Source of the DNA: a virus
DNA: 38,070 nucleotides
Virus record (IMG/VR): IMGVR_UViG_3300047496_000216
Coordinates: 1 to 38,070 of that record
Strand: one strand, 5' to 3'
Under the pieces are notes generated by a model. That model did no database searches and was not told the DNA's origin. It saw only the letters and a list, made by a program, of their open reading frames with translations. The translations under genes and the position numbers were made by a program. Numbering within the stretch: the stretch's first letter is position 1; the number at the start of each line of letters is the position of its first letter. Shown in pieces: positions 1-38,070 of the stretch.

Positions 1-243
1 CGCTAGAGTCATCCACAAGGAACAAGGGTGGGTGCCTATAGGTTACCACCAGCTTTGGCACGTGAGCGCCCCCTACCGCTATAACTACAAGCTTGGGAGT
101 GCGGCAGGAGCAGACTGTGGCCACGGGAAAATCGAATTCTGATGCCTGAGGTCATTGTTTACCATTTGGATAGCGAGTTAGAGCACTTGAAGGGGAAAAA
201 CTGGAAGGGGCGTCAAAGCCGAAAGTTCGGCCCTTCTCAAACT
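1..243. repeat. Contig-end redundancy, left copy (16-base deletion)
   Basis: Bases 1-243 match 37812-38070 base for base apart from 16 bases present only in the right copy, between GCAGACTG and TGGCCACGG at about base 117. The overlap shows that the contig is circular, or that the molecule is terminally redundant or circularly permuted. The missing bases change the reading frame of the glycosyltransferase that spans the junction. The right copy keeps the frame open, so the left copy is the defective one, either a real minor variant or an assembly error at a contig end. Confidence 0.95.
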
Positions 244-435
244 TCCCCAGAGAAAAAATTGGTGGGTGCCACGGCGCCCCATGTGACACAAAAAAAATCA
301 AGTGACACAACACATGACACAGGGCCTGTGGTTCACTCGAAAGTGATCCATCAGATAAATCATCGGATTGTCCATCATTTTAGGTGTCCTCCGTGCCCCC
401 CGAGACCAAAGCCAAAGCCGCCTTATTGTGATTGA
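142..435 (+). CDS. GT-A glycosyltransferase, C-terminal part (gene split by contig ends)
   Basis: This reading frame is the 3' end of the gene that begins at 37330. Joining 37330-38070 to base 244 gives one continuous 310-residue protein that stops at 433-435. The ATG at 142 is an internal methionine, not a real start: the same codon lies inside the open frame at 37969 in the right copy. Upstream of 118 the left copy is out of frame because of a 16-base deletion, and the true frame hits a stop at about 140. The last 60 residues form a low-complexity tail rich in His, Thr, Lys and Pro, ending in a Cys-Pro-rich segment (PPCPPRPKPKPP). Such a tail is not part of the GT-A fold and may bind metal or a partner. 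The function is described at 37330. Confidence 0.8.
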   Translation: MPEVIVYHLDSELEHLKGKNWKGRQSRKFGPSQTSPEKKLVGATAPHVTQKKSSDTTHDTGPVVHSKVIHQINHRIVHHFRCPPCPPRPKPKPPYCD

Positions 436-1402: not shown

Positions 1403-2155
1403 ATGAGAGTTTTTGTTGTCACGTCCGCTTATTGCCAAGCGGGACTTCTAGCTCACGGTTTAAAAAGGTTCGAAGCGATAAAGACTCCTGGCCTTATCTA
1501 CCGTCACGTCGTGGTCGGTGGACACTATCCGTTCCCAAATAAAGCGCACAACGAGGTTTGCCTAAGAAGAATTTGTGACGCATTCGGCGTCGAGTACATG
1601 CAGCCCGAGTACGACTTGGGATCCGCGCAAACACAGAATTGGTGCCTACAACAGCTGGACATTCAGCCCGGGGACGCGTTCATCAACCTGGATCCGGATG
1701 CGATGTGCTCAGTCCGTGGTTGGGATAAAGCGATGTTCGATGTGCTTTCTTCCGACCCTGAATGCGCACTGATTCACTGCATTTCGCCACCCGTGCAAGA
1801 CATGATAGACGAAGGGAAGACTCCCATCGAAATAAAACACGTCTCTGGTTATCAACTCGCGGTTCCTCTTCGCCCCGACCAATTTAATCTCACAATGTGG
1901 AGATATTCGGTCATTCACGACTTCGGAGGCATTCTTCAACAGCATCCCTATTACGGGCAGGTTGAGATCCCGATGTATATGGCGATAAGAGAAAAAGGAT
2001 TTTACAACGCCTACCTACTTGGTTTCAGGGAGGATGAGCGAGGTAAAGACATGCACGATCCGGAATTCACTATGTGGAAGAGAGCTCACGCTCACGATAT
2101 GACCTACATGGGGAAGTTCGAAGAGTACTGTCAGGCAAATGGATGGATCAAATAG
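1403..2155 (+). CDS. GT-A fold glycosyltransferase (GT2-like)
   Basis: This 250-residue soluble protein resembles nucleotide-sugar-dependent glycosyltransferases of the GT-A fold. The N-terminus MRVFVVTSAY is a first beta strand. AQTQNWCLQQL (about 75-85) fits the helix that precedes the metal site. FINLDPDA holds a DXD-type motif (Asp97-Pro98-Asp99) that would bind the metal and sugar nucleotide. The C-terminal half has HD-rich segments (GKDMHD, RAHAHDMTYMG) typical of the acceptor side in phage-borne members. No membrane segment is present, so it should act in the cytoplasm. A G-rich Shine-Dalgarno (GGGGTTGGGGT) precedes the ATG. It lies behind a terminator and starts a run of genes to 4441. 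The acceptor is unknown. Confidence 0.75.
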   Translation: MRVFVVTSAYCQAGLLAHGLKRFEAIKTPGLIYRHVVVGGHYPFPNKAHNEVCLRRICDAFGVEYMQPEYDLGSAQTQNWCLQQLDIQPGDAFINLDPDAMCSVRGWDKAMFDVLSSDPECALIHCISPPVQDMIDEGKTPIEIKHVSGYQLAVPLRPDQFNLTMWRYSVIHDFGGILQQHPYYGQVEIPMYMAIREKGFYNAYLLGFREDERGKDMHDPEFTMWKRAHAHDMTYMGKFEEYCQANGWIK

Positions 2156-2607: not shown

Positions 2608-3636
2608 GTGGCTCGTCAATTTAATTTGGCTTGTATCTTTCCTGATGCCATGGACGCGACGTCATTTTATCGTGGCGCGCGTCCCATGGGACTCCTTAAA
2701 AAGAAGTTAGACTTTGGGATTATAACAAATCCTCAAGCCCTTAACTGGCCGGAGACTAGCAGTTGCGACGCGGTCTATCTTCAACGCCCGTTCTCTGAAG
2801 CGCACGTTCAAATGTGCAATCTCGCGCGCTATTTGAACCTGCCTATTTGGATAGACTTCGATGACAACATTTGGGACATCCCGATTCACAATAAGGCGTG
2901 GCAAAACTACCGGGCGGCCGGCACCAGACAGAATATCCTTTCGATGCTTCAGATGGCGGCCGTAGTCACGACGACTACTCCGTTCTTAAAATCGAAGGTG
3001 ACTCACAAAAACGTGAAGGTGATCCCCAATTGCTATGACGATTACCTTTTGGGAGAAGGATCCAGGCTTCAACGAAAGAAAAATATCAAGCCCAGGAAAA
3101 TGATTTTTTGGAGAGGCTCGGACTCACATCAGAAAGATCTGATGCAGGTGACAGAAGCTATCATTAAACTCTCTCGGGCCGATCAGAAGTGGGAATGGGG
3201 AATAATGGGTTACGATCCATTCTTCTTACTTCAGAACATGCCGCCTTCTCGTACTCACTTCATCAATTACACGGACATCATCCGGTACTTTGAAGAGATC
3301 CAAAAAAGACAGGCGGCCATTCACATCGTTCCTCTTTTTGTCGACGATTTCAATAAAGCGAAAAGTAATATCGCCTGGATCGAAGCGACCCATGCGGGAA
3401 GTGTCGTGCTAGCGCCTGACATCGAAGAATGGAGAAAGCCTGGCATCGTAAACTATAAAAATCCAGTGACTCATCCGACGGACTTCGAAGAGAAGTTAAA
3501 GCATATGATGGATAACTTCGATGAGTACCGAGGATTTAACGAAATTAGCTGGGCATACATTAAGGAGAATCTTCTCCTTTCAAACGTGAACGAGAAGAGA
3601 GCCGACATCTTAAGAGAGATTATAAAAGACCTATGA
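2608..3636 (+). CDS. GT-B fold glycosyltransferase (GT4/GT1-like)
   Basis: This 342-residue protein resembles GT-B glycosyltransferases that transfer a sugar from a nucleotide donor. The first half shows an N-terminal Rossmann-like unit with SFYRGARPMGLL and PIWIDFDDNIWDIP (about 89-102), a signature of phage and cell-wall GT4-like enzymes. VIPNCYDDYLL (about 140-150) marks the domain junction. The second half has the donor-site layout: a strand-turn FWRGSDSHQKD, then IAWIEATHAGSVVLAPDIEEW (about 257-277) with the conserved acidic residue after IAWIE. No signal peptide or membrane segment. The start is GTG with AGAGGT five bases upstream. Its stop overlaps the ATG of the next gene (ATGATG). 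Confidence 0.78.
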   Translation: MARQFNLACIFPDAMDATSFYRGARPMGLLKKKLDFGIITNPQALNWPETSSCDAVYLQRPFSEAHVQMCNLARYLNLPIWIDFDDNIWDIPIHNKAWQNYRAAGTRQNILSMLQMAAVVTTTTPFLKSKVTHKNVKVIPNCYDDYLLGEGSRLQRKKNIKPRKMIFWRGSDSHQKDLMQVTEAIIKLSRADQKWEWGIMGYDPFFLLQNMPPSRTHFINYTDIIRYFEEIQKRQAAIHIVPLFVDDFNKAKSNIAWIEATHAGSVVLAPDIEEWRKPGIVNYKNPVTHPTDFEEKLKHMMDNFDEYRGFNEISWAYIKENLLLSNVNEKRADILREIIKDL

Positions 3637-18634: not shown

Positions 18635-19915
18635 TTACACGCTTCCGTCGTTACCTTGATAAATGAAGCGCGGGTCGATGTAGTCCGCGTTCATTCGGGT
18701 CGACGCCTTAAAGCGCACGATGTCTCGGTCAAAGCTTTGACCCGAGTCCGGCGCCTCTTGAACAATCGATACCGGCTCCCGGTACTGGACGATGAAGAAT
18801 GGCTTCGAATCGTCACAGAGATACCAGGCAGTCGATGTCCCGTCGGTCACGCCACTGTTGTTGAACATGTAGCGAGAGACCGAGATCTCAGCGATGGTTT
18901 TAAATGGAGATTCCGGTCCCAAGGGGTTGATGGCGAACGCGCCGCCCGCAACTCCCGCCGCCTGTGCGCCCGAAGGATAGTACGATGACCGAACTAAAAC
19001 GGCCGTATCGAACATGATCTTCGGACCAATAAGGAGGCGCCGAGGCTCAACCTGCATACGAATGCCCTGCAAGTTCTTCTGAGCGAGCAGTGCCACCATC
19101 GAGGTCTGGATATTGGCCTGCGAAATCGCACCGAACGCTGCCGGTCGGTTCGACCCGCCACCAATGAAATTCTGCGAGTACGGATAGTTCGCTTCCGTGC
19201 TGGGCTTCGTTTCACTGGTTGGGATAATGAGGTTGATGTATTTCATGTTGGCCGCTGAAGCCAACTTTCCGTACACCCACACTTCGGTGAGCACTTTTAA
19301 GTACTCGCCGAGTAACGCCGCCTGACGGGCGAATGAACCCGTCTGGTCGTCGTTTAGTAATTCTTTTTCAATCGGGTACATCGCGCCGAACTTGCGAGCA
19401 CGGAGCTTGATGTCCAGTGCTGCGGCACCGACTTCGGGATACGTTCCCTGAATCGGTACTTCGTTCGGGAATGCAATCCCGTGGTTCGGAGCATAGAGCT
19501 CTTCAGTCCGAGTGCTCTGAACGGCAGTCGTCCACTCCTCAAATACCGTGTCGACCGTCTCGTACGCGTTCAGCGTGATGTTCTGAATACCGGCACGCAG
19601 AAACTGCGTGAAGGTCGTCTCAGAGTCCGCTTCTCGGATTTTTAGGGCTCGGCGGAAACCCTTCCAATCGAAATTCCGTTCCTTTAAAGGATTAGGAAAC
19701 TCTTTCGAAAGAGGATCGTACCCGAACTTATTCTTGAAGAACGCCCGAAAGTCCGCCGCCTCTTCGCAGTTATAAGCCGCTTCGCGTAGGACTTTCTTGT
19801 TCTCGAGCAGTTTAGGAGAGCGCTTAATGAACTCTCCTCGCCCCGCCATCTCCATAAGAGAGGCGAGACCTTTTGCCTGAGCTTCCTCAGGCGACATGAA
19901 ATTTTTAGTATCCAT
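18635..19915 (-). CDS. Major capsid protein (HK97 fold, Mu gpT-like)
   Basis: A 426-residue protein located after the protease-scaffold and decoration genes. The N-terminal 80 residues are helical and charged, then DSETTFTQFLRAGIQNITLNAYETV starts the capsid fold. The spine and A domain show VPIQGTYPEVGAAALDIKLRARKFG and QVEPRRLLIGPKIMFDTAVLVRSS, the pattern that Mu-type gpT and related capsids use at the P domain. The end (SFDRDIVRFKASTRMNADYIDPRFIY) matches the conserved terminal strand. GGGGGAG precedes the ATG by four bases, and a strong terminator follows, both as expected for the most abundant virion protein. Confidence 0.9.
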   Translation of the reverse strand: MDTKNFMSPEEAQAKGLASLMEMAGRGEFIKRSPKLLENKKVLREAAYNCEEAADFRAFFKNKFGYDPLSKEFPNPLKERNFDWKGFRRALKIREADSETTFTQFLRAGIQNITLNAYETVDTVFEEWTTAVQSTRTEELYAPNHGIAFPNEVPIQGTYPEVGAAALDIKLRARKFGAMYPIEKELLNDDQTGSFARQAALLGEYLKVLTEVWVYGKLASAANMKYINLIIPTSETKPSTEANYPYSQNFIGGGSNRPAAFGAISQANIQTSMVALLAQKNLQGIRMQVEPRRLLIGPKIMFDTAVLVRSSYYPSGAQAAGVAGGAFAINPLGPESPFKTIAEISVSRYMFNNSGVTDGTSTAWYLCDDSKPFFIVQYREPVSIVQEAPDSGQSFDRDIVRFKASTRMNADYIDPRFIYQGNDGSV

Positions 19916-26020: not shown

Positions 26021-27367
26021 TTACCTCCTGATGATGAACATCTTGCCAGGCTTCACTGCCGATTGGATAGGCGTGATCTCGCAAATTGCGTAGCCGATAC
26101 CATCTGACGCGTGAGTCATGTCCCCCTTTGGTCCCGAATCCAAAATTAACGTCGCACCTTTCTTCCAGGCAACTTGAGAAAGGTCGCGCTGCAAGTTTCG
26201 ACACTTGGGGCTATGCCACATACTGACTTGGCCCGAAGCACTCCTAAGCACCGCGTTCACCGCGTTCACCCTGTCTTTTACGGTCGGGTTGCAGCTTGGA
26301 GTGCGGCTCGTCCACCGGATGGAGTTCGCATCCAGTATCTGACCCACGATGTCATAGTCGCTTTGCCCGGCCGCGGCCCGTTGCCCTGCGTTCGATGTCG
26401 CATCCCCACAGATAACAATCCCTGCAGGATGACCTTTAACCCGCTCCACAAGCTCAAGCGCCGCTTCGGGTGTGTGACTGTGTTCCAAGTGAATCTCATC
26501 GTGCCAGTACCAATTTGGCCCCGCGTTTTGCCCAAGCGTCCAGCACATAGGCGTCAGGTTGAAGTCCATTGCGACGATGATGGGGAGCGCGGGATGAATC
26601 CCGCCATCACGGGTGAGAGGTGATGTGTCACGTACGTTGTGGTCGCCGTAGGCGTAGTAGACCGGATGCTCCGCGATGTTCACGTGCTTTGCGTCGAGTT
26701 CTTGGGCTGCCGTCACTTTCGAATAGGTTTTAAGCAACTGGTCGTAGAACTCTTGGGTGATGATGCCGGCCTTCACAGCTTCGATAGTTGCGACGTGGGT
26801 GAAGCCGTAGGTGAGGTCTTTCGGGTTCTTTACGATGAACCGTTCATAGCTCCAATCCTCACCATTCGTCGTTGAGGTTACGAGTCCTCGAATCTTCTTT
26901 GATTCACGAAGACGACTCACAATGACGTCGTGAGTGTTCTGAGGCGTGTCCCGGACCTCGTCCATCCAGTACCAAGAGAACTCGATACCACGAAGCGGGT
27001 TTGGCTTACTCATCACACGGGTAAAGATCGTGACCAGTCGGTTTTTGGCCTTTACCGAAATGATGTTCGCGTAACTTTTGAACTCCCGTCGTCCTCCCCA
27101 GTGTCGGGGTGGCCTTTTGTCTGCGACCCACTTGTAACCGTAGTAATCAAGCCAGTAGAAGAATTCTCGAAGTGTCGCTTGGGAAAGTTGGTTATAGGTG
27201 TTCGCACCGATGAGACCCGATTCGTCTGGCATCGTGTCTATATTCTCGAGCGCGAAGTGGGATCCTGTGAAGGTCTTACCTACTGCGACACCGCCAAAGA
27301 ATGCGTAATGCGTAAAGGGATTCTTCACCACCGCGGCTTGCCATGGGTGAAGATGGATATCGCTCAT
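26021..27367 (-). CDS. terL: Terminase large subunit
   Basis: A 448-residue packaging motor. Walker A is GGVAVGKT (Lys31, Thr32), Walker B is WYWMDE (Asp136, Glu137). The nuclease domain has its three acidic residues in VAMDFN (Asp268), ICGDAT (Asp322) and HASDGIGYA (Asp422). ATPase hydrolysis drives DNA into the head and the nuclease cuts the concatemer. The length is typical of a full two-domain protein. It overlaps the small subunit by four bases (ATGA). Confidence 0.95.
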   Translation of the reverse strand: MSDIHLHPWQAAVVKNPFTHYAFFGGVAVGKTFTGSHFALENIDTMPDESGLIGANTYNQLSQATLREFFYWLDYYGYKWVADKRPPRHWGGRREFKSYANIISVKAKNRLVTIFTRVMSKPNPLRGIEFSWYWMDEVRDTPQNTHDVIVSRLRESKKIRGLVTSTTNGEDWSYERFIVKNPKDLTYGFTHVATIEAVKAGIITQEFYDQLLKTYSKVTAAQELDAKHVNIAEHPVYYAYGDHNVRDTSPLTRDGGIHPALPIIVAMDFNLTPMCWTLGQNAGPNWYWHDEIHLEHSHTPEAALELVERVKGHPAGIVICGDATSNAGQRAAAGQSDYDIVGQILDANSIRWTSRTPSCNPTVKDRVNAVNAVLRSASGQVSMWHSPKCRNLQRDLSQVAWKKGATLILDSGPKGDMTHASDGIGYAICEITPIQSAVKPGKMFIIRR

Positions 27368-27726
27368 TGCTTATTGTGGTAGGCCGCTTGTTCAGCTTCG
27401 GTGCAGGTGATTACGGTGCGCGGCTTTTCATCTTCATCCTCTTCGACAACTATAGGTGCCGGCGTGTCCGATTGACCCAGGAGTTGCTTCCCAAGCCAAA
27501 TGAGCATGGTCACGTTGCCGGCTTCCGCTATCTCTATTTGCTTTCGTCTAATGCGCTCACGGGTTTCATCGCGACCTTTTTTTAGAAGGGGCCCGTATCG
27601 GCGCTTTAGAGCGCTCTCCCCGATATCTAAGACGCTCCCTATCTCCGAGTCGGTGCAATGGTTACGCGCCATTCCATAAATCACCTTTTCGACTTCCGGA
27701 GTGATTTGTTTTAGCGGTCTCCCCAT
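27364..27726 (-). CDS. terS: Terminase small subunit
   Basis: A 120-residue DNA-recognition protein and first gene of the late block. The start MGRPLKQITPE and the helix-turn-helix (NHCTDSEIGSVLDIGESAL then RYGPLLKKGRDETRERIRRKQ) match the small terminase/DNA packaging family; GNVTMLIWLGKQLLGQ is the shared helix used for ring assembly. The C-terminal 30 residues are acidic. It recognises the pac or cos site and loads the large subunit. Only 44 bases separate it from the divergent glycosyltransferase gene at 27771, so the late promoter must lie in or near that gap. Confidence 0.9.
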   Translation of the reverse strand: MGRPLKQITPEVEKVIYGMARNHCTDSEIGSVLDIGESALKRRYGPLLKKGRDETRERIRRKQIEIAEAGNVTMLIWLGKQLLGQSDTPAPIVVEEDEDEKPRTVITCTEAEQAAYHNKQ

Positions 27727-27770: not shown

Positions 27771-28694
27771 ATGAAAAAGCTACTGGCCGTTTACAATGTT
27801 TGTGGGATTTCGGGTCGAGAGAATATCCCGTATTACGTCAACGCAATCGAATCCATGCTTCGTCAAGATTTGAGTGAGACTGATGTCGTGGTCTCTGGCT
27901 GCATGAGTTCAAAGCCTGTTCAAACGCAGCTGCAAGATACTTTTGGTGCAAGAATTTCTTACAATTGGATCTTGCAGCCACTGCCTTTAGGCGTCACGTT
28001 CAACCATACTGTGGCACGATGTGTCGAACGGTTTGGAGAGTATGACGGTTACCTCTACGTGGATTCTGGCATCAATTTCTGGAACCCAGACGGAGTGGTG
28101 CTTGGGAATACGTTCTCGACACTCTTTCAAGGGATGCGTCAGTACAACGCGGCTATCATTGCCGCGATGCCATCAAACGATGACGGGAGACAGTGGTGGA
28201 ATATCAGCTATCCGCCTGACGGTTCGGACTACCGGTACTCTTTAGGACAGACGACGAACATGCACTGCCAAATCTTTTGTGCGGATTGGCTTAGGACGTA
28301 CGGCCGAATCTTGCCTGACATATTCGCTTCCGATTCCAGTGAGTCCACATTTTCATTTTTATGTTCCGCACTTCGTCGTCCCTTCATCATGAGACAGCGC
28401 GCCCACGTCTTTCATGCGCATTCGATGGACGGAGCGTCTTCTGGGTTTCGAGGGCAACTTCTCTTTAAGACCACGCGCACAATGGATGAGAGGTACAACG
28501 AAGGGAAGCACTTAGGGTTTGGATATGAAGAGTGCGACCCACAGAAGCGGTGGATGCATGACCCGACAGCTTACGACGCTGACGGTTATCCAATAAGCCC
28601 TGAACTTGCGCTTTATTTGAAGGAAAACTTGTTCTTGAAGCAGTCGGAGTTTGATTACCGTTGGATCAATTCAGTTATGTTCGCAAACCGCTGA
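27771..28694 (+). CDS. Glycosyltransferase (GT2-like, variant DXD)
   Basis: A 307-residue soluble protein with GT-A features: MKKLLAVYNVCGISGRENI at the start, a helix with YYVNAIESMLRQ, GVTFNHTVARCVERFG (nucleotide-binding helix), and GYLYVDSGINFW, where Asp98-Ser-Gly stands at the DXD position with its second Asp missing. The C-terminal half (FHAHSMDGASSGFRGQL) has conserved His/Asp that could assist catalysis. It heads a two-gene plus-strand island with the C-methyltransferase-like gene and is divergent from the terminase block. The acceptor is unknown. Confidence 0.7.
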   Translation: MKKLLAVYNVCGISGRENIPYYVNAIESMLRQDLSETDVVVSGCMSSKPVQTQLQDTFGARISYNWILQPLPLGVTFNHTVARCVERFGEYDGYLYVDSGINFWNPDGVVLGNTFSTLFQGMRQYNAAIIAAMPSNDDGRQWWNISYPPDGSDYRYSLGQTTNMHCQIFCADWLRTYGRILPDIFASDSSESTFSFLCSALRRPFIMRQRAHVFHAHSMDGASSGFRGQLLFKTTRTMDERYNEGKHLGFGYEECDPQKRWMHDPTAYDADGYPISPELALYLKENLFLKQSEFDYRWINSVMFANR

Positions 28695-28714
28695 GCGTTG
28701 TAAAGGGATGTAAA

Positions 28715-29851
28715 ATGTACACCAGGATTACCAAATGTAGGGCGTGTGGGCATCAAAGTTTCGTTCCCGTTTTAGATCTTGGAATGCAAGCACTGACCGG
28801 TGTTTTCCCAAAGTCGAAATCAGATCCGGTTGAAAAGGCTCCACTTCAACTAGTGCGTTGCGGGAAGTGCGAGCTCGCTCAACTTCATCACACCGTGCCG
28901 CCAACCCTCATGTTCGGAAAAGGGTACGGGTACCGATCGTCTTTGAATAGATCCATGGTTTCTCACCTTGAATCAAGTGCAAGAGCGATTGAGCACATGG
29001 TTGCGATCAAGGACACGGACGTTGTGGTCGACATAGGCTCGAACGATGGCACAACACTCAAAGCTTTTAGAAACGGTGAGCGATGGGGATTTGATCCTGG
29101 TGACTTTCAGAAATATTACGACGGCACTGAAATCCATTTCGTCAACGATTACTTCAAAAAAGGAATGTGTCCCAAAGCGAAAGTGATTACCGCTTACGCA
29201 ATGTTCTACGATCTTGACGATCCGATTTCATTCTTGAGCGACATGGCAGATACCCTTGCACCTGGCGGTGTCATCGTCCTTGAGCTCGCGTATCTTCCGA
29301 CAATTGTTAAAAACACTGCTTACGATACGATCTGTCACGAACACCTTTGTTACTACCGGATCTTCGACGTCGAGACGATGGCTATTAAAGTTGGTCTGCG
29401 AAGGAAATTCGCTATGTTGAACGATACCAATGGCGGGAGCGCGTTCATCGTTCTTGAAAAAGGAGTCCCGATAAATTCGAGAAGCCTTCAGGATTACCAT
29501 TTGTATCTCGATTCGTTTGCAACCCGTGTGAGAGAAAGAAAAGAGCAGTTGCTTAAATTCCTCGACGCTCACAGAGGAAAGGTCGTGGGCTACGGCGCAT
29601 CCACCAAAGGGAACGTGCTACTTCAGTATTGCGGGATCACAGAAGAGTTGCTTCCAGCCATCGTTGATGTGAATCCCGACAAGTGGGGATCGTTTACTCC
29701 TGGATCTCTTATTCCGATTGTTCCTGAGGGAACTATTGAGTCTGAGTACTTCTTAGTCATGCCGTGGCATTTCAAAGACGACATCTTGAAACGGAACCCG
29801 AAACAGAAGTTCGTCTTCCCGCTGCCTACCCTGGCCACATACCGAGCTTAG
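28715..29851 (+). CDS. SAM-dependent C-methyltransferase (sugar C-methyltransferase type)
   Basis: A 378-residue protein with three parts. A zinc site comes first (Cys8, Cys11, Cys49, Cys52). The SAM domain follows, with VVVDIGSNDGTTLKAF (motif I, about 103-118) and HEHLCYYR (about 210). The C-terminal domain carries GKVVGYGASTKGNVLLQYCGI (in parts), as in NovU/TylC3-type enzymes. This order matches proteins that add a methyl to C-3 or C-5 of nucleotide sugars. The ATG at 28715 has AAAGGG seven bases before it and is better than the upstream ATG at 28661. Its end overlaps the convergent gene at 29826 by 26 bases. No sugar-synthesis genes are nearby, so a host sugar nucleotide should be the substrate. 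Confidence 0.83.
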   Translation: MYTRITKCRACGHQSFVPVLDLGMQALTGVFPKSKSDPVEKAPLQLVRCGKCELAQLHHTVPPTLMFGKGYGYRSSLNRSMVSHLESSARAIEHMVAIKDTDVVVDIGSNDGTTLKAFRNGERWGFDPGDFQKYYDGTEIHFVNDYFKKGMCPKAKVITAYAMFYDLDDPISFLSDMADTLAPGGVIVLELAYLPTIVKNTAYDTICHEHLCYYRIFDVETMAIKVGLRRKFAMLNDTNGGSAFIVLEKGVPINSRSLQDYHLYLDSFATRVRERKEQLLKFLDAHRGKVVGYGASTKGNVLLQYCGITEELLPAIVDVNPDKWGSFTPGSLIPIVPEGTIESEYFLVMPWHFKDDILKRNPKQKFVFPLPTLATYRA

Positions 29852-30707
29852 AGAATATTCTAAGCCAGAATAGTTCGGGGTTTCGCGTCTCGGTTACTTG
29901 TCTGTGTAGACTCATACGTGAGACATCCAGACACTTTTCAGCGTCCTTAGACTCACTCTCTTTGATCATTGTCCTAATATCTTCCACTGACCGCCACTCG
30001 AAATAATCAACGAACCACTGCCGTGTGATCGGATTTGTCTGTTCCAGAAGAATGCATTTAGCCAAACCAGCTTCTCTAACTCTGTTCTTCACATGCCATG
30101 TTTTTCCGCTTCCAGATCGAGCGAAGTTCACCACAAACTTACAACGGAGCATGAAATCTGCGTAGTCTTGATAGGTGCCGTACCTCTCGCACCTGGGCCC
30201 CACAGTCACAAGACTTCCGAGCTCTCGAATAGCGTCGCTTCGTTCTTTGCTTCCCGTTCCACCCACGAATCCCAAGAGAATGTCTTTTTCTACTGTCTTA
30301 TCGTACGGCCTCGGATCGAGCGGCATGAGAGTGGTCAGATCATTCCCAGAACTTGGCCAGTAACTTGAACCATCCATATTCACTTGAAACGTAAACGCGT
30401 TCGCTTTCCGGTACTGTTGAATGGACGGCCACCAGTCTGGGCACGCTCCGTCGCAGCATAGGTGAACGACTGGGCAGATATGCTCACGAATGGTTGCGAA
30501 CATGTCGGCCGGCATCTTTAGCGGCCCTTCCGCCGCTCCAATGTAGAACACGACGTCCGGGTTCAGTGCTTCGACATAACTGTAGGATGGCACTAGTTTC
30601 GAATAGAAGTGGTGTGTAATCTCTAGGTTCCAGTGAGTGACACTCGTTAAGCTATTCACCACGGGCTCTAAAGCCATCGACTCGTTTGTGATCCAAAGAA
30701 CTTTCAT
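29826..30707 (-). CDS. CgeB-like glycosyltransferase, copy A
   Basis: A 293-residue protein resembling the glycosyltransferases of the CgeB/DUF3880 type (GT-B fold). The first half has MKVLWITNESMALEPVV, then VVHLCCDGACPDWWPSIQQ and VNMDGSSYWP. The second half has DILLGFVGGTGSK, then YGTYQDYADFMLRCKFVVNF and a conserved RVREAGLAKCILLE (donor site). It is clearly paralogous to the protein at 32405; both have the CCD-x-x-CPDWWP block and the YGTYQDYA block. No membrane segments. AGGGA lies eight bases before the ATG. A 7-base stem (29846-29852, 29859-29865) covers the convergent end with the methyltransferase gene. Confidence 0.75.
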   Translation of the reverse strand: MKVLWITNESMALEPVVNSLTSVTHWNLEITHHFYSKLVPSYSYVEALNPDVVFYIGAAEGPLKMPADMFATIREHICPVVHLCCDGACPDWWPSIQQYRKANAFTFQVNMDGSSYWPSSGNDLTTLMPLDPRPYDKTVEKDILLGFVGGTGSKERSDAIRELGSLVTVGPRCERYGTYQDYADFMLRCKFVVNFARSGSGKTWHVKNRVREAGLAKCILLEQTNPITRQWFVDYFEWRSVEDIRTMIKESESKDAEKCLDVSRMSLHRQVTETRNPELFWLRIFSKLGMWPG

Positions 30708-30733
30708 TTTATTTCCCTAACCTCAGCCACTTT

Positions 30734-30976
30734 TCATTTCTCCCCCGACCGCGATAGCGAACCCGACCGCGACCACGACCGCGACCACGCCCTCGACCGC
30801 GACCACGATAGCGAACACGACCACGCCCTCGACCGCGACCACGACCGCGACCACGACCGCGACCACGCCCTCGACCGCGACCACGATAGCGAACACGACC
30901 GCGAACACGACCGCGAACACGACCGCGACCACGACCGCGCCAGGTCGAAACTCGCTCTTAGTAGGCTCGCATTCAT
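30734..30976 (-). CDS. Trp-Ser-Arg repeat protein made of a hexanucleotide minisatellite
   Basis: An 80-residue frame begins at an ATG that overlaps the upstream stop (ATGA), as all its neighbours in this operon do, and encodes almost only a dipeptide repeat (SRSWSRSR, SCSRSCSR, SRAWSRSW). All reading frames of the repeat give other repeats, so it could be a spurious by-product. The coupled start and uninterrupted length favour a real, if simple, product. The first 13 residues (MNASLLRASFDLA) are not repeated. Function unknown. Confidence 0.4.
   Translation of the reverse strand: MNASLLRASFDLARSWSRSCSRSCSRSCSLSWSRSRAWSRSWSRSWSRSRAWSCSLSWSRSRAWSRSWSRSGSLSRSGEK
30746..30941. repeat. Hexanucleotide minisatellite with 59-base higher-order repeat
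   Basis: About 196 bases built of six-base units close to CGACCG, CGACCA and CGAACA. On top of these, 59 bases (30764-30822) recur exactly at 30842-30900, an offset of 78 bases (13 units). The region is G-C-rich and strongly strand-biased, with C almost only on the plus strand in CGA/CGC units. Copy-number change by slippage or unequal recombination is expected. Confidence 0.9.
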
Positions 30977-31248
30977 TTCACTGTTCGTGGAAGTTTGTGA
31001 TTCCAGATCGATGCATCCACAATGCTTCCGCGACCTATGATCACGTTTCCTATCATCGGCTCTACTTCATTTAGCTCGCCAGTAGAAAGCGCATTATGAA
31101 ATCTGCCATCGTCTGCTATCCATGCGCACTCGCTTAAGATCAATTCCTTTTGGAATACCGCCTCAAGTCTCCCCGTATAGTGATGAGTCACCGTACGGAT
31201 GAAATAGTTAGCGCCAATTTGCCATGGGTTTGTTGCCATTACTTTCAT
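30973..31248 (-). CDS. Conserved small phage protein of unknown function
   Basis: A 91-residue protein. QIGANYFIRTVTHHYTGRLEAVF and VIIGRGSIVDASIWNHKLP (in parts) match a small family I recall from many phages (probably DUF6948), but I cannot verify the name here. The fold should be a small beta-barrel. It is coupled to the gene before it (ATGA at 31245-31248) and to the repeat gene after it. In my recollection members of this family are often followed by a simple repeat frame, as here. Confidence 0.7.
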   Translation of the reverse strand: MKVMATNPWQIGANYFIRTVTHHYTGRLEAVFQKELILSECAWIADDGRFHNALSTGELNEVEPMIGNVIIGRGSIVDASIWNHKLPRTVK

Positions 31249-31811
31249 TTTATCTCCTCTATGCAGACGAGCTTGGCTTTGTGTGTTTCAATGTCAGCCT
31301 TGTATAACAGTTTATCAGGATCCGGATCGAATCCTCTCCAAGCACCCACACAATCATCGTATCGCTCCATATATTCCACCGTCGGCGCATCCTTGAGCCA
31401 TTGACGAACCTGGCTCGAAAGCTTATCTCCCCCAATTTGCTTAAGACCTAAGAGCTCGCGTACCTCATACAAGACCTTCCACGGCCAGCTAGCTTTTCCT
31501 TCCCCGCACTTAGAACATTCCAATTGTTTGGCGGTTGGTTCGGTGTGAATAGTCAATCCGCACTCGGGGCATTCCCATCTGTAGTCACGAACAGAAGAAT
31601 CCAAAATAATTGCTTTATGCTTACTTCTGGGATCAGGCTCACTTCTCCAAGCCCTACCGCCCTCTTCGTATGAGTGAGAATAGACTTCACATGACGAACT
31701 CTTCAGCCATGCTTCTAGCTTGGCGTTGGCGGCGTCGGCTAGCAATTGCGGATCCGTACAACCATTGTCTGAATCGATCCATGGTTCGAAATCTTCCGGT
31801 GTGAATTTCAT
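31245..31811 (-). CDS. Zinc-ribbon protein of unknown function
   Basis: A 188-residue protein. The centre has a zinc ribbon: CPECG (about 81-85) and CSKCG (about 99-103). An N-terminal helical part (ADAANAKLEAWLKS) precedes it and a Trp- and Lys-containing C-terminal part (VRQWLKDAPTVEYMERYDDCVGAW, in parts) follows. It overlaps both neighbours by four bases. It could bind nucleic acid or a protein partner; no family recognised. Confidence 0.65.
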   Translation of the reverse strand: MKFTPEDFEPWIDSDNGCTDPQLLADAANAKLEAWLKSSSCEVYSHSYEEGGRAWRSEPDPRSKHKAIILDSSVRDYRWECPECGLTIHTEPTAKQLECSKCGEGKASWPWKVLYEVRELLGLKQIGGDKLSSQVRQWLKDAPTVEYMERYDDCVGAWRGFDPDPDKLLYKADIETHKAKLVCIEEIK

Positions 31812-32161
31812 TTCTTTTCCAAAAAATCCAGTAATTCTTTTCGAGGCAGTGCCATCGCAAGAAACTCATCGGTAGTCCTGTGGGCTTTTGGATACATCAA
31901 TATCGGTTCTAGTGAGATCAGATATTTCGCCAGAAGCATGTGCAATTGATGGTTCTCTCGAATAGTTTTTTCCTCCTCTTGCACGTGAGTCAGGTCTGAG
32001 GATGGAACGTCCAACAAAGCCCCATCCACAAAACCTTCAGGACAATGTCCGGCTTTGATTTGGATGATCGCCATCAACTGACTTCCATGGCGATAGATGA
32101 ACTCCACCACATCGACCCAGCATCGACGGTGTGCATCCACATTCCAGTATGCTGTCTTCAT
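31808..32161 (-). CDS. Hypothetical protein of coupled minus-strand operon
   Basis: A 117-residue protein with two His/Cys-containing stretches (AYWNVDAHRRCWVDVVEFIYRHG; KAGHCPEGF) and a helical C-terminus (LHMLLAKYLISLEPILM). AAGG precedes its ATG by two to five bases. It lies in the chain between two CgeB-like glycosyltransferases. Not recognised. Confidence 0.6.
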   Translation of the reverse strand: MKTAYWNVDAHRRCWVDVVEFIYRHGSQLMAIIQIKAGHCPEGFVDGALLDVPSSDLTHVQEEEKTIRENHQLHMLLAKYLISLEPILMYPKAHRTTDEFLAMALPRKELLDFLEKK

Positions 32162-32200
32162 AACCTTATTTATTTTCTTCCATTTTTCACGTTGCCTTAA

Positions 32201-32335
32201 CTAAAAAGCGTTCCATGCTAAACTCCAAAGCATCCAAGCAAACCGAAAGAAAATAATTCCGATGGGGACTACCACGAAGAACAATATCCCCAAAGCGAAC
32301 CAGCTACAGAGGATGTCCCAGATATCTTCATCCAA
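32201..32335 (-). CDS. Small two-part membrane protein, TTG start
   Basis: A 44-residue frame begins at TTG (32335), with GGGGGG seven bases upstream, and overlaps the previous frame by eight bases. It starts acidic (MDEDIWDIL) and continues as a long hydrophobic span (WFALGILFFVVVPIGIIFFRFAWMLW, in parts) with aromatic ends, fit for one or two membrane passes. With the 26-residue partner it looks like a membrane micro-pair. A holin-like or exclusion role is possible but unproven. Confidence 0.5.
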   Translation of the reverse strand: MDEDIWDILCSWFALGILFFVVVPIGIIFFRFAWMLWSLAWNAF

Positions 32336-32408
32336 AAATCAACCCCCCGATGATCACAGCGATGGAGAGCGCAAACACGATGAGGGTTGGTATTAAGGAC
32401 TCACTCAT
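32328..32408 (-). CDS. 26-residue membrane miniprotein
   Basis: A 26-residue frame whose ATG overlaps the stop of the glycosyltransferase before it (ATGA). Its sequence (MSESLIPTLIV onward) is one short hydrophobic helix ending in IIGGLIFG. The coupled start favours translation, but its length keeps the call tentative. Confidence 0.45.
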   Translation of the reverse strand: MSESLIPTLIVFALSIAVIIGGLIFG

Positions 32409-33289
32409 TTCATTACCTTCACCTGATGGAAGACCGAGTCCCAGAATCTCTCAGGCGAATGGTAACTCATTACGTCTGAGTACATTCTCTCCGAATAGCT
32501 CTTCGCCTCTTTCAAAGACATACTGACCACAATACGTTCGATATCGTCGATAGAATCGTATTCCAAGTATTGAATTCCTTTTTGGAACCAAAGCTCCGTT
32601 ATCGAGTCCTTTGGCTCCAAGAGACACGCTCCGGCAAGCGCAGTCTCTACCACGCGTGCCTTCACGTGCTTTCCCCGTCCTGATCCGGTCTCGCACATGT
32701 TGATAACGAAGTGGCAGCGCTTTAAGAAGTTCGCGTAGTCCTGGTAGGTGCCGTAGTTTTCATTTCGAGGGGCGACTACGAGGAGGCCTCGCTTTTTAAG
32801 TTCATCCGTGAGCTCTTTCCTCTTCCCCCCACCGCACCCACCTGCAAACCCCAGGACGATGTCTTTAACCACCTTCTCGTCGTAGAACCGGGTATCGATG
32901 GGGCAAAGAGTAGTTAGATCCCATTCGCTCTCAGGCCATTCGGTACTTCCGTCGATATTGACGATGAAAGTGAAGACTCCCTTTTCCTTGTACTCAATGA
33001 GAAGTGGCCACCAATCGGGGCACCCCGCATCGCAACAGATCATAACGAGCGGCGCTTTTTCTTTGATGGACAGTAAGTGCTCAATGGATAGGCGCCTAGG
33101 ATCCAAAGTCCCGATGTAAAGAATGAGGTCCGGTTTTCTCTGCTCGATGACGAAAGAGATCGCGTGAACTTGATCTTCCATCTCGAAGTAGTCCATCCTT
33201 GTGGTTTCGGTAACCCCAGAGATCGTATCGATGGACCTGATGATAGGCTCTAAGCTCATCGACGTGGTGCCGAGCCAAAGGACTTTCAT
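32405..33289 (-). CDS. CgeB-like glycosyltransferase, copy B
   Basis: A 294-residue paralogue of the protein at 29826. Common blocks are MKVLW(L/I), SLEPI, CCDAGCPDWWP, FTFIVNIDGSTEWP, DLTTLCPID, IVLGFAGGCG, YGTYQDYANFLKRCHFVIN and RVVETALAGACLLEP. The glycine-rich and CPDWWP motifs look intact in both. Start is the ATG at 33289, just after GGAGG, so the six residues before it in the longer frame are not used. It overlaps the upstream gene by four bases. The two copies could add different sugars or form a heterodimer. Confidence 0.76.
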   Translation of the reverse strand: MKVLWLGTTSMSLEPIIRSIDTISGVTETTRMDYFEMEDQVHAISFVIEQRKPDLILYIGTLDPRRLSIEHLLSIKEKAPLVMICCDAGCPDWWPLLIEYKEKGVFTFIVNIDGSTEWPESEWDLTTLCPIDTRFYDEKVVKDIVLGFAGGCGGGKRKELTDELKKRGLLVVAPRNENYGTYQDYANFLKRCHFVINMCETGSGRGKHVKARVVETALAGACLLEPKDSITELWFQKGIQYLEYDSIDDIERIVVSMSLKEAKSYSERMYSDVMSYHSPERFWDSVFHQVKVMK

Positions 33290-33600
33290 GCCTCCTCCGG
33301 GGAACATCCAAATTTGTCGTGCTCATAGATTTTCACGAACTTTAAGTATTCAAGACACCCACTTAGGAGGTCCATAATCAAAGAATTTAATCTTTGTTGA
33401 GCTTGTCTTTGAATTTCGGCTATTGGAACATCTTTCTTCAGATCTATTTCTTTCAGGGAATGCGAAAGTTTAGTGAAGTCATCGTCCTCTTTTACCCACT
33501 TCTTAATCAGCTTCGCACTGCGCTTGTACCGCCGCTTTCGCATCGTGGCCTCGATGGCTTTCACTTTGTTTTTGGATCCTGGTTTTCGACCTCTTGGCAT
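33286..33600 (-). CDS. Basic AT-hook-like protein of unknown function
   Basis: A 104-residue protein. Its start MPRGRKPGSKNK is an AT-hook-like (GRKPGSK) basic motif, followed by a Lys/Arg-rich helix (MRKRRYKRSAKLIKKWVK), then an acidic helical section and a helical end. DNA binding is plausible. It is the first gene of the chain after the terminator at 33622-33701 (AAGGGAG seven bases before the ATG) and overlaps the glycosyltransferase start by four bases. Confidence 0.7.
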   Translation of the reverse strand: MPRGRKPGSKNKVKAIEATMRKRRYKRSAKLIKKWVKEDDDFTKLSHSLKEIDLKKDVPIAEIQRQAQQRLNSLIMDLLSGCLEYLKFVKIYEHDKFGCSPEEA

Positions 33601-35121: not shown

Positions 35122-35535
35122 ATGAAGGCACTTAAACTTTTAGGGTTCGCTCTTTTAATTGCAGCCTGCGGCAAGGCGCCGATGGCCATCAACTCATCGG
35201 TCGCGACCACCTACGTTCCGCTCTTTGGGATTGGGTCTGGACAAGCCGAAAAGGACTTTATGGCGCGGCCACAGGTGATGGCTCTGTCGTACAACTATAC
35301 GGCACCTGTGCTGCAAAACTACGGGGACGAGGAGATGGACCAGGACACGAACCCATACATGCTCTACGTGCTTCAGGACAACACGAACCAAAAAAAGCTC
35401 ATCTCCTTGAACTGTAGCAATGACCCGACGGTGAATGCGGCGAACGCCTCGATCCCGGGCTACAAGGTTACAACGACCATCGTCACCATCGATGACGGGT
35501 ACGGCTGCGACTTTTACATCGAAAGGACAGAGTAA
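35122..35535 (+). CDS. Phage-encoded lipoprotein
   Basis: A 137-residue protein with a lipoprotein signal: MKALKLLGFALLIAAC, with the lipobox IAAC and Cys16 as the lipidated residue. The mature part is strand-rich, with two Cys (NCSN, GYGCDFY) that may form a disulphide, and an acidic/Asn-rich middle. Phage lipoproteins made from a strong early or constitutive promoter commonly block receptors for superinfection exclusion, or can act in lysis. The promoter at 35067 and an AGGAGGAGGG site point to its own strong expression. No family recognised for the mature domain. Confidence 0.8.
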   Translation: MKALKLLGFALLIAACGKAPMAINSSVATTYVPLFGIGSGQAEKDFMARPQVMALSYNYTAPVLQNYGDEEMDQDTNPYMLYVLQDNTNQKKLISLNCSNDPTVNAANASIPGYKVTTTIVTIDDGYGCDFYIERTE

Positions 35536-36026: not shown

Positions 36027-37010
36027 TTATTTTTTATCCAGGGAGTCTACGACATCCTGGATTTCTTTTTTGGCCTCTTCCGCCTGGTACTTCGCGGCAG
36101 GCTTCAAGGACCCCTTCACCCCGATCGTGGTGCCCTCCACCGAGAAGTCAGTGACAGGGACTGGCGGGAGCGGCTTGTCGTTGATGGTGTAGAAGGCCGC
36201 TTGGTTACCGATGTTGTTACAGGGGCGGCCCGTGCGGCCCGTGTAAGCTATCCGCATCCAGCCGTTCTCGCCCCATTTCGGACCCCAGCTGTTTCGCATG
36301 ATCCAGTACTTACCCGTGTCGCTCCATCCAACGATGTTCACCATGTGGTTCACCTGTTGGTTCGAGCACGCATTGTAGATACCTGACTCGTACTGGGCGA
36401 ACGCGTTGTCGGCACCGACTGTCACCGAGACCGGACCCGAGGAGAGGATCGCCTGTTGGATTTGCTTCACGGTGGGAACCGAACTCTCAGACCCCACGTA
36501 GTGCCACCCGATAATCCCGGCTGTAGGCGTCGAGGCTTTGCAGCGCTGCGTGCGCGCGACGTAGGGGTAGCTATCCCACGAAGGGGCCCCTTTTGGCGTC
36601 ACGAAGTAAGTGGCAGCGTCAAACGTGCCACCGTTACAGCCAAGCTCATGGCCACAATCTACCAGGTACTGTTGGGAGAGCCGGCCAGGGTCTTTCCCGT
36701 ACAGGGTCCAGACGTCCCTAAGGGTCGCCGTGAGGGAGAACGCCCAGCACGACCCGCACTGGCCTTGATCTTCTATCTGTGTGATTTTATTACGTAAATC
36801 GTATTCTGCCGGGATTGGAAGGTCCTCTCCTGGCGTCTGGTAATCCAGGTTTTGGCTTACCTTAGGGAAGCTCAAAAACCCGGTCTTGTACTTCACGGGC
36901 TTATCCGTGAAGTGGAAGGTCCAGCCTTCCGACTTCGCGCGTTCGGTGAAGTCGACGTTTGTCGCAAAAAGTGAGCCGCAAAACAGTAAAGCTAAAAGGA
37001 GTACTTTCAT
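36027..37010 (-). CDS. Secreted papain-family (C1A) cysteine protease
   Basis: A 327-residue protein with a signal peptide (MKVLLLALLFCGSLFA, residues 1-16, cleavage before Thr17 or so). A 47-residue propeptide-like region follows, then a complete C1A domain: DQGQCGSCWAF with Gln82 (oxyanion hole) and Cys88 (nucleophile), CGHELGCNGG (about 119-128), NHMVNIVGWS with His222, and IMRNSWGPKWGENGWMRI with Asn240. All catalytic residues are present. The usual I29 inhibitor prodomain is missing or very short. The last 50 residues (PVTDFSVEGTTIGVKG and a helix) are an extension. The start is ATG at 37010, with GGGGGGA seven bases upstream; the ATG at 37037 would add nine residues. Papain-type proteases are unusual in phages. 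It could act in the periplasm or outside. Confidence 0.92.
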   Translation of the reverse strand: MKVLLLALLFCGSLFATNVDFTERAKSEGWTFHFTDKPVKYKTGFLSFPKVSQNLDYQTPGEDLPIPAEYDLRNKITQIEDQGQCGSCWAFSLTATLRDVWTLYGKDPGRLSQQYLVDCGHELGCNGGTFDAATYFVTPKGAPSWDSYPYVARTQRCKASTPTAGIIGWHYVGSESSVPTVKQIQQAILSSGPVSVTVGADNAFAQYESGIYNACSNQQVNHMVNIVGWSDTGKYWIMRNSWGPKWGENGWMRIAYTGRTGRPCNNIGNQAAFYTINDKPLPPVPVTDFSVEGTTIGVKGSLKPAAKYQAEEAKKEIQDVVDSLDKK

Positions 37011-37099
37011 GGTGTGTCCCCCCAAAGTTTCTTTCATCGTACCACGGTAATGAGCTCAGCCCTTGACTGTCGTTAGACACGGGGCGTACAAGGTTTGGA

Positions 37100-37282: not shown

Positions 37283-37329
37283 TGCCTAAAGAAGCGGACC
37301 CCGCTTAAATCGTGGTTCTTGGGGGAACC

Positions 37330-38070
37330 GTGCGATTAGAAGCTGTCATCGTCTGCAAAAACTACTCTGACTTTTTGGCCGAAACTCTGCCTTTGAACGT
37401 GCAACACTTCGACGAAGTGGTCGTCATGACATCTCACGATGATGTGGAGACCCAAAAGCTTTGCGAACGCTTAAGTGTGGAACACGTAAAGACCGACTGT
37501 TTCTTGGATGACGGCGACACGTTCAACAAAGGCAACGCGATTAATCTTGGGATCTCGCACCTCCCCCGAAAAGGGTGGCTACTTCACCTGGACGCAGACA
37601 TCGTCCTTCCCCACCGGTACCGGTACATGCTCGAGAAGACGGAGCTTAACCCGAAGAATATCTACGGGGCGGACCGCGTAAACGTGTACGGTTGGGAAGC
37701 TTGGTCTGCCTTGAAGCCGCGTCTCATACCCCATTACCAAGACCATTGGTTTGTGGATCCGGGTTTTTGCCACACGTGGATGGGAGCCACACCTTCTGGT
37801 CTTAAATTTGGCGCTAGAGTCATCCACAAGGAACAAGGGTGGGTGCCTATAGGTTACCACCAGCTTTGGCACGTGAGCGCCCCCTACCGCTATAACTACA
37901 AGCTTGGGAGTGCGGCAGGAGCAGACTGTTGGTTCCCGGCTCAGTGGCCACGGGAAAATCGAATTCTGATGCCTGAGGTCATTGTTTACCATTTGGATAG
38001 CGAGTTAGAGCACTTGAAGGGGAAAAACTGGAAGGGGCGTCAAAGCCGAAAGTTCGGCCCTTCTCAAACT
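37330..38070 (+). CDS. GT-A glycosyltransferase (GT2-like), N-terminal 247 residues
   Basis: The frame from GTG at 37330 (GGGGGA four bases upstream) runs open to the window end and continues from base 244 to 435, giving 310 residues. MRLEAVIVCKNYSDFLAETLP is the first nucleotide-binding strand and loop. FNKGNAINLGISHLP is the second helix. LLHLDADIVLP has the DXD (Asp88-Ala-Asp90) that binds the metal ion. Later blocks (GADCWFPAQWP, EVIVYHLD with its His) are acceptor-side motifs of GT2-like phage enzymes. The 16 bases missing from the left copy fall in GADCWFPAQWP, so only this copy codes a sensible protein. No membrane segment. The donor and acceptor are unknown. Confidence 0.82.
   Translation, partial: MRLEAVIVCKNYSDFLAETLPLNVQHFDEVVVMTSHDDVETQKLCERLSVEHVKTDCFLDDGDTFNKGNAINLGISHLPRKGWLLHLDADIVLPHRYRYMLEKTELNPKNIYGADRVNVYGWEAWSALKPRLIPHYQDHWFVDPGFCHTWMGATPSGLKFGARVIHKEQGWVPIGYHQLWHVSAPYRYNYKLGSAAGADCWFPAQWPRENRILMPEVIVYHLDSELEHLKGKNWKGRQSRKFGPSQT
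37812..38070. repeat. Contig-end redundancy, right copy (intact)
   Basis: 259 bases equal to 1-243 plus 16 bases. Removing the left copy gives a circle of 37,827 bases with an intact glycosyltransferase gene. Confidence 0.95.

Follow-up and report, generated by a model that had tools for sequence, protein, structure and literature searches.

Results

The virus record IMGVR_UViG_3300047496_000216 (38,070 bases; its whole length is referred to below as the window) carries six glycosyltransferase (GT)-like genes and a gene for a predicted sugar C-methyltransferase, which are named here by their first position (Table 1). All seven open reading frames (ORFs) lie where a preliminary description had placed them, and together they occupy 6,579 nucleotides (6.58 kb), that is, 17% or about a sixth of the genome. 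An enzyme family or fold was found for six of the seven. The six GTs counted initially held up for five genes, which have family or structure evidence, while 27771 is not established as a GT. As had been claimed, the GTs contain no membrane-like stretch: the maxima of mean hydropathy over 19 residues ranged from 0.84 to 1.17 (1.59 for the methyltransferase), and all seven enzymes are apparently soluble. The cassette at 27771-33307 directly adjoins the terminase genes. That this phage encodes a sugar-transfer system is well supported.

Table 1. Putative sugar genes of the window and the terminase genes beside them
Feature	Position	Strand	Basis
Putative GT2-like GT, first part; continues across contig ends to base 435	37312..38070	+	PF00535 E 2.4e-4; LHLDADIV motif; GTG start at 37312 or 37330
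Same GT2-like gene, second part	1..435	+	Copy 16 bases short; frame broken near base 118 (alignment of end copies)
Putative GT2-like GT (GT-A), DPD motif	1403..2155	+	6/10 family members match PF00535, best 1.9e-11; D97 and D99 invariant
Predicted GT4-like GT (GT-B), phrog_7162 family	2608..3636	+	phrog_7162 'glycosyltransferase' E 2.6e-29; AlphaFold2 (AF2) predicted local distance difference test (pLDDT) 95.1; BshA Z 25.8
Large terminase and small-terminase-like gene, beside cassette (context, outside pathway)	26021..27726	-	Terminase_6N E 1.5e-9; siblings at 40-46% identity
Possible GT-A enzyme, back to back with small-terminase-like gene	27771..28694	+	No family; one relative; low-confidence model
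Predicted sugar C-methyltransferase, TylC3/TcaB9/NovU type	28715..29851	+	PF08421, PF13489, PF08484; TylC3 4.7e-37; HEH stretch conserved
CgeB-like GT, paralogue of 32405	29826..30707	-	PF13524 E 0.0028; 42-43% identical to 32405
CgeB-like GT, inner ATG at 33289	32405..33307	-	PF13524 E 3.1e-9, above cut-off

The firmest call of the set is the predicted methyltransferase 28715. It matched Methyltransf_13, Methyltransf_23, and Methyltransf_14 of Pfam with E values down to 3e-30, and PF08421, PF13489, and PF08484 occur in the right order at 58.4, 38.0, and 105.6 bits (curated cut-offs of 31.3, 27, and 23.5, respectively). The protein aligned over its full length with the D-mycarose 3-C-methyltransferase TylC3 (4.7e-37) and with TcaB9, which belong to the same three-domain family; however, these two serve antibiotic sugar pathways, whereas 28715 is a phage gene assigned by family. 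NCBIfam gave no match for 28715, and NovU, TylC3, and other types are not told apart here. TylC3/TcaB9-type enzymes work on nucleotide-bound 4-keto-deoxyhexoses. Judging by its family, 28715 would methylate a ring carbon of a nucleoside diphosphate (NDP)-4-keto-deoxyhexose, both this substrate and the choice of carbon being presumptive.

The most informative of the GTs was 2608. A structure-prediction check, as proposed in the preliminary description, gave a confident model in which this protein has the two-domain GT-B/GT4 fold, whereas the model of 27771 was poor. The structures nearest to the 2608 model were GT4 enzymes, with BshA first (Z 25.8, root mean square deviation of 3.0 Å, 309 of 342 residues aligned) and PglA and WaaG among the matches. 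A PDB sequence search with 2608 gave no useful match, nor did a scan of viral contigs with the single sequence; an alignment was required to find relatives. With a profile built from the copies of the window and of the related locus L002, we found 229 relatives in viral contigs, while a 45-row profile recovered 5 from 84,980 bacterial and archaeal genomes, both counts being lower bounds because the scans rely on short conserved patterns. Thus, the 2608 family is phage-centred, and its near absence from the bacterial genomes scanned indicates that it is not commonly found in prophages or among cell-envelope functions. One of the five genome-scan relatives (L091) itself lies on a phage contig, where terminase, portal, GT, more GTs, epimerase, MuF-like, and capsid-like genes follow in a row, as judged by eye.

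We then analyzed the neighborhoods of this family. The sample comprised the best 80 of the 229 relatives, which after removal of near-identical copies left 64 viral loci; a head gene was recognized by clustering in 33 of them, with head labels taken from cluster representatives, partly by eye. Of these 33 loci, 30 had the GT less than 2 kb away from a head gene, at a median distance of 237 bases. For random genes of the same loci, the corresponding number was 17.9 ± 2.4, with a maximum of 27 over 5,000 draws, none of which matched the observed median distance. In a PHROG scan, the immediate neighbors of the GTs were led by MuF/head morphogenesis, portal, and terminase families, and genes at least 6 kb away showed no such concentration of head families. 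Together, these data show that members of the 2608 family neighbor terminase, portal, or MuF genes much more frequently than the remaining genes on those contigs do.

The terminase of the window matches ten loci at 40-46% identity, all of which had been fetched for their 2608-family GT; some contigs or sequences are represented twice among them (L002/L008 and L006/L007). In L007, L008, L020, and L029, the GT lies approximately 1.4 kb before the terminase. Deoxysugar genes accompany it in several siblings: RmlB and RmlC between terminase and portal in L020 and L029, RmlB between GT and portal in L013, RmlC just before the portal in L008, and weak RmlD-like matches in L002 and L020; among these calls, the L029 RmlB alone scored above its curated cut-off, while RmlC and the L013 RmlB fell slightly short and the L020 RmlB and RmlD clearly short. 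The remainder of the L002 record appears contractile-tail-like by eye. In view of the sibling Rml genes and this tail, phages with the same terminase, perhaps with different tails, seem to share a deoxysugar theme. RmlA, RmlB, and RmlC were not found in the window, yet the intermediate on which its C-methyltransferase would act belongs to the same class as that of the sibling Rml genes. The L002 contig further encodes an Ala/Tyr/Thr-rich repeat protein (19178-19687, minus strand).

For the CgeB-like pair, 32405 scored 37.4 bits against PF13524, above the cut-off of 25, while 29826 on its own stayed below it at 18.0 bits; five of the six members of this small family match PF13524. For the CgeB-like proteins, searches of PDB sequences returned nothing useful, and neither a single-sequence scan of viral contigs nor tblastn in the phage collection returned a match for 32405, whose relatives required an alignment to be found. 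Preceding 29826 on the minus strand is an 80-residue ORF (30734-30976) that contains 31 serines, 16 arginines, and 9 tryptophans, is built on a tandem array of 12- and 30-nucleotide units, and overlaps its upstream neighbor by 4 nucleotides. Small genes between the GTs had been proposed to belong to the same pathway; we found no convincing family for them.

The 37312 gene is borderline GT2 by Pfam, as it reached 21.5 bits against PF00535 (cut-off of 23.3) with a standard DAD motif. It is intact, with 316 amino acids, only via the end copy of the terminal overlap, and a PDB sequence search with it gave no useful match. The 1403 protein alone had no family match of its own; the profile of its family matches solved GT2 enzymes at 1.6e-8, which makes it GT2-like through its relatives. 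A tblastn search of the phage collection with 37312 and 1403 found nothing.

The weakest case is 27771. It matched no family in Pfam or PHROGs, its PDB sequence matches were at chance level, and a profile comparison with the 1403 family found nothing. The model, made from two sequences, reached a pLDDT of 42. Its N-terminal 98 residues alternate as beta-alpha-beta-alpha-beta-alpha-beta into a VDSG motif, and the fold search returned tied, nonspecific Rossmann-type folds, the model being too poor for use. The genome scan, the single-sequence scan of viral contigs, and tblastn in the phage collection yielded no relatives; an alignment was required, and the sole relative found lies on the phage contig of L005/L088, a few kilobases from four CgeB-like GTs, a GHMP kinase, and an epimerase. 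This co-occurrence suggests that 27771 takes part in the same pathway as the GTs, which does not by itself prove it to be one. The contig (G002, 98.7 kb) carries portal, HK97-type capsid, DNA polymerase, and DUF1559 pseudopilin-type genes, the last being typical of planctomycetes. The four CgeB-like GTs and the kinase are part of a long sugar island there, which also includes radical SAM/B12 genes and epimerases.

Regarding the genome as a whole, bases 1-243 repeat 37812-38070, the only difference being 16 bases that the end copy has in addition, as seen in an alignment of both copies. Since the record ends overlap, the genome is circular or circularly permuted, with a unit length of approximately 37.8 kb. 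The 16-base difference, TGGTTCCCGGCTCAGT, is present in the end copy only and breaks the frame of the 37312 GT in the start copy, as either an assembly fault or a real variant. The structural set is siphovirus-like, with terminase, a lambda/SPP1-type portal, a MuF-like protein, a Mu gpT-like capsid, and a tape measure, as well as three tail-collar-like proteins judged by eye. No integrase was recognized among the window ORFs, some ORFs of the structural module being outside the library scans. Promoter- and terminator-like sites in the window were at or below chance, Rfam gave no family at the gathering threshold, and no tRNA was found. A papain-family cysteine protease with an apparent signal peptide (36027-37037, minus strand; PF00112, E 2.5e-52) is unusual for a phage, and a small protein at 35122-35535 (plus strand) carries a lipoprotein-type signal (LIAAC) and may derive from the host envelope or be destined for it. 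A guess at Bdellovibrionota as the host, based on signal peptides and guanine-cytosine content, was dropped.

Discussion

We consider it somewhat probable that this phage-encoded glycan system decorates the phage's own virion proteins. The host would supply an NDP-4-keto-6-deoxyhexose, probably deoxythymidine diphosphate-4-keto-6-deoxyglucose, which 28715 would methylate, and the 4-keto group may then be reduced by a host enzyme or kept. First and later sugars would be transferred in the cytoplasm by the soluble GT-A (37312, 1403, and perhaps 27771) and GT-B enzymes (2608, 29826, and 32405), the donors and the order of the transfers being presumed. A head or tail protein would serve as the acceptor, giving the particle a glycan coat.

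The preliminary description had already put virion-protein glycosylation first, and this is still the best reading, with a virion acceptor indirectly suggested by the association of 2608-family genes with head genes, by the sibling Rml genes, and by the precedents of phages Corndog and Che8. In Corndog, an O-methyltransferase and three GTs lie between portal and protease, and capsid modification has been suggested (PMC4351075). In mycobacteriophages, glycans have been reported on both capsid and tail tube (cited in PMC12619734 and PMC11256854). Given these two precedents, virion glycosylation is the natural reading. Positional support from the window itself is partial, as the cassette abuts the terminase, whereas 1403 and 2608 sit between ERF and VRR-NUC-like genes, outside the head module. 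Several further points weigh against glycosylated virions. No acceptor has been identified, and the capsid protein has no Ser/Thr-rich C terminus. The cellular family member L089 lies within a bacterial polysaccharide cluster, and distant members (L076-L085) are directly beside SbcC or DNA polymerase. Moreover, profile comparison, which with single-sequence templates has little power, gave no significant match to the Che8 GTs. As an observation on those phages themselves, the SbcC/DNA polymerase context could mean that the acceptor there is DNA.

Alternatively, the enzymes could alter a glycan on the host surface (lipopolysaccharide, capsule, or S-layer) during infection, which might, for instance, prevent superinfection or keep progeny from re-adsorbing to debris. 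At the inner face of the membrane, soluble GTs can work on sugars linked to lipids, the polysaccharide cluster of L089 is an ABC-transporter cluster of Methylococcus, and the PglA and WaaG matches of 2608 fit such a role. On the other hand, the cassette contains no membrane protein, flippase, or acyltransferase, and the near absence of the 2608 family from the bacterial genomes scanned, together with its link to head genes, makes host remodeling rather unlikely.

Hypermodification of the phage's own DNA bases with glycans, as an escape from restriction, appears quite improbable. DNA-glycosylating phage GTs are well known (as cited in PMC12619734), the distant 2608-family members next to DNA polymerase or SbcC would fit such a function, and annotated DNA alpha-glucosyltransferases occur among the viral fold matches, with low TM-scores. 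However, these rank well below other phage GTs, and close members of the family sit in head modules. Furthermore, in line with the earlier claim that no base-preparing gene is visible, no hydroxymethylase, thymidylate synthase-like, or TET/JBP protein was found among the scanned proteins, with several ORFs of the structural module outside the scan and another route to modified bases being conceivable. That the acceptor is one of the small phage proteins, for example the product of 30734-30976, is very improbable. Its serine content, its position beside a CgeB-like GT, and the overlap with its upstream neighbor would suit an acceptor; however, it belongs to no Pfam family, and its repeat could have arisen by recent expansion of the DNA.

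Returning to glycosylated virions, we tentatively propose, as a possible but doubtful extension, that this terminase marks a whole lineage of uncultured phages, possibly with more than one tail type, which carries an exchangeable deoxysugar module beside its packaging genes (RmlB/RmlC/RmlD-like in some, the C-methyltransferase here), with which it writes its own glycans on particles, and that 27771 represents a new GT family. Phage glycan clusters and glycosylated virions are already known. To our knowledge, glycosylation of the particle has been documented for only a handful of phages. The association of a phage-centred GT family with head genes across many uncultured phages suggests that glycan coats on particles may be widespread, and a 2608-family GT beside terminase or portal offers a sequence handle for finding and testing glycosylated phages. 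The trait would also bear on immune recognition of phages, since mycobacteriophage virion glycans shield against antibodies, according to PMC11256854 and PMC12619734.

Among known systems, Che8 (gp108-110) and Corndog (gp35-38) resemble the window in having several soluble GTs in a siphovirus, in Corndog together with a methyltransferase within the head operon; however, that enzyme is an O-methyltransferase instead of a sugar C-methyltransferase, and the GT set of the window adds a CgeB-like pair. Serotype-conversion cassettes are likewise phage-borne sugar-transfer systems, and the contrast drawn earlier with their membrane-bound enzymes holds, as the window cassette has no flippase or integral-membrane transferase and no integrase was recognized. 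In the cyanophage DSL-LC02 of Synechococcus, a relative of 28715 (38% identity) is flanked by GDP-mannose 4,6-dehydratase and GDP-fucose synthase, with many GTs following, but that genome has 168 kb, and the window encodes neither of these two enzymes. Genes 4-6 of Streptomyces phage KimJongPhill encode a UDP-glucose dehydrogenase, a methyltransferase, and a 2608-like GT just before the terminase genes, although this stretch has a single GT, with 24% identity over 66% of the query. Both this arrangement and that of DSL-LC02 count in favor of the virion reading. Compared with these systems, the new aspects are how densely sugar genes are packed into a small genome, a different set of enzymes that combines a sugar C-methyltransferase with two CgeB-like GTs, and the statistical association between head genes and a phage-centred GT family.

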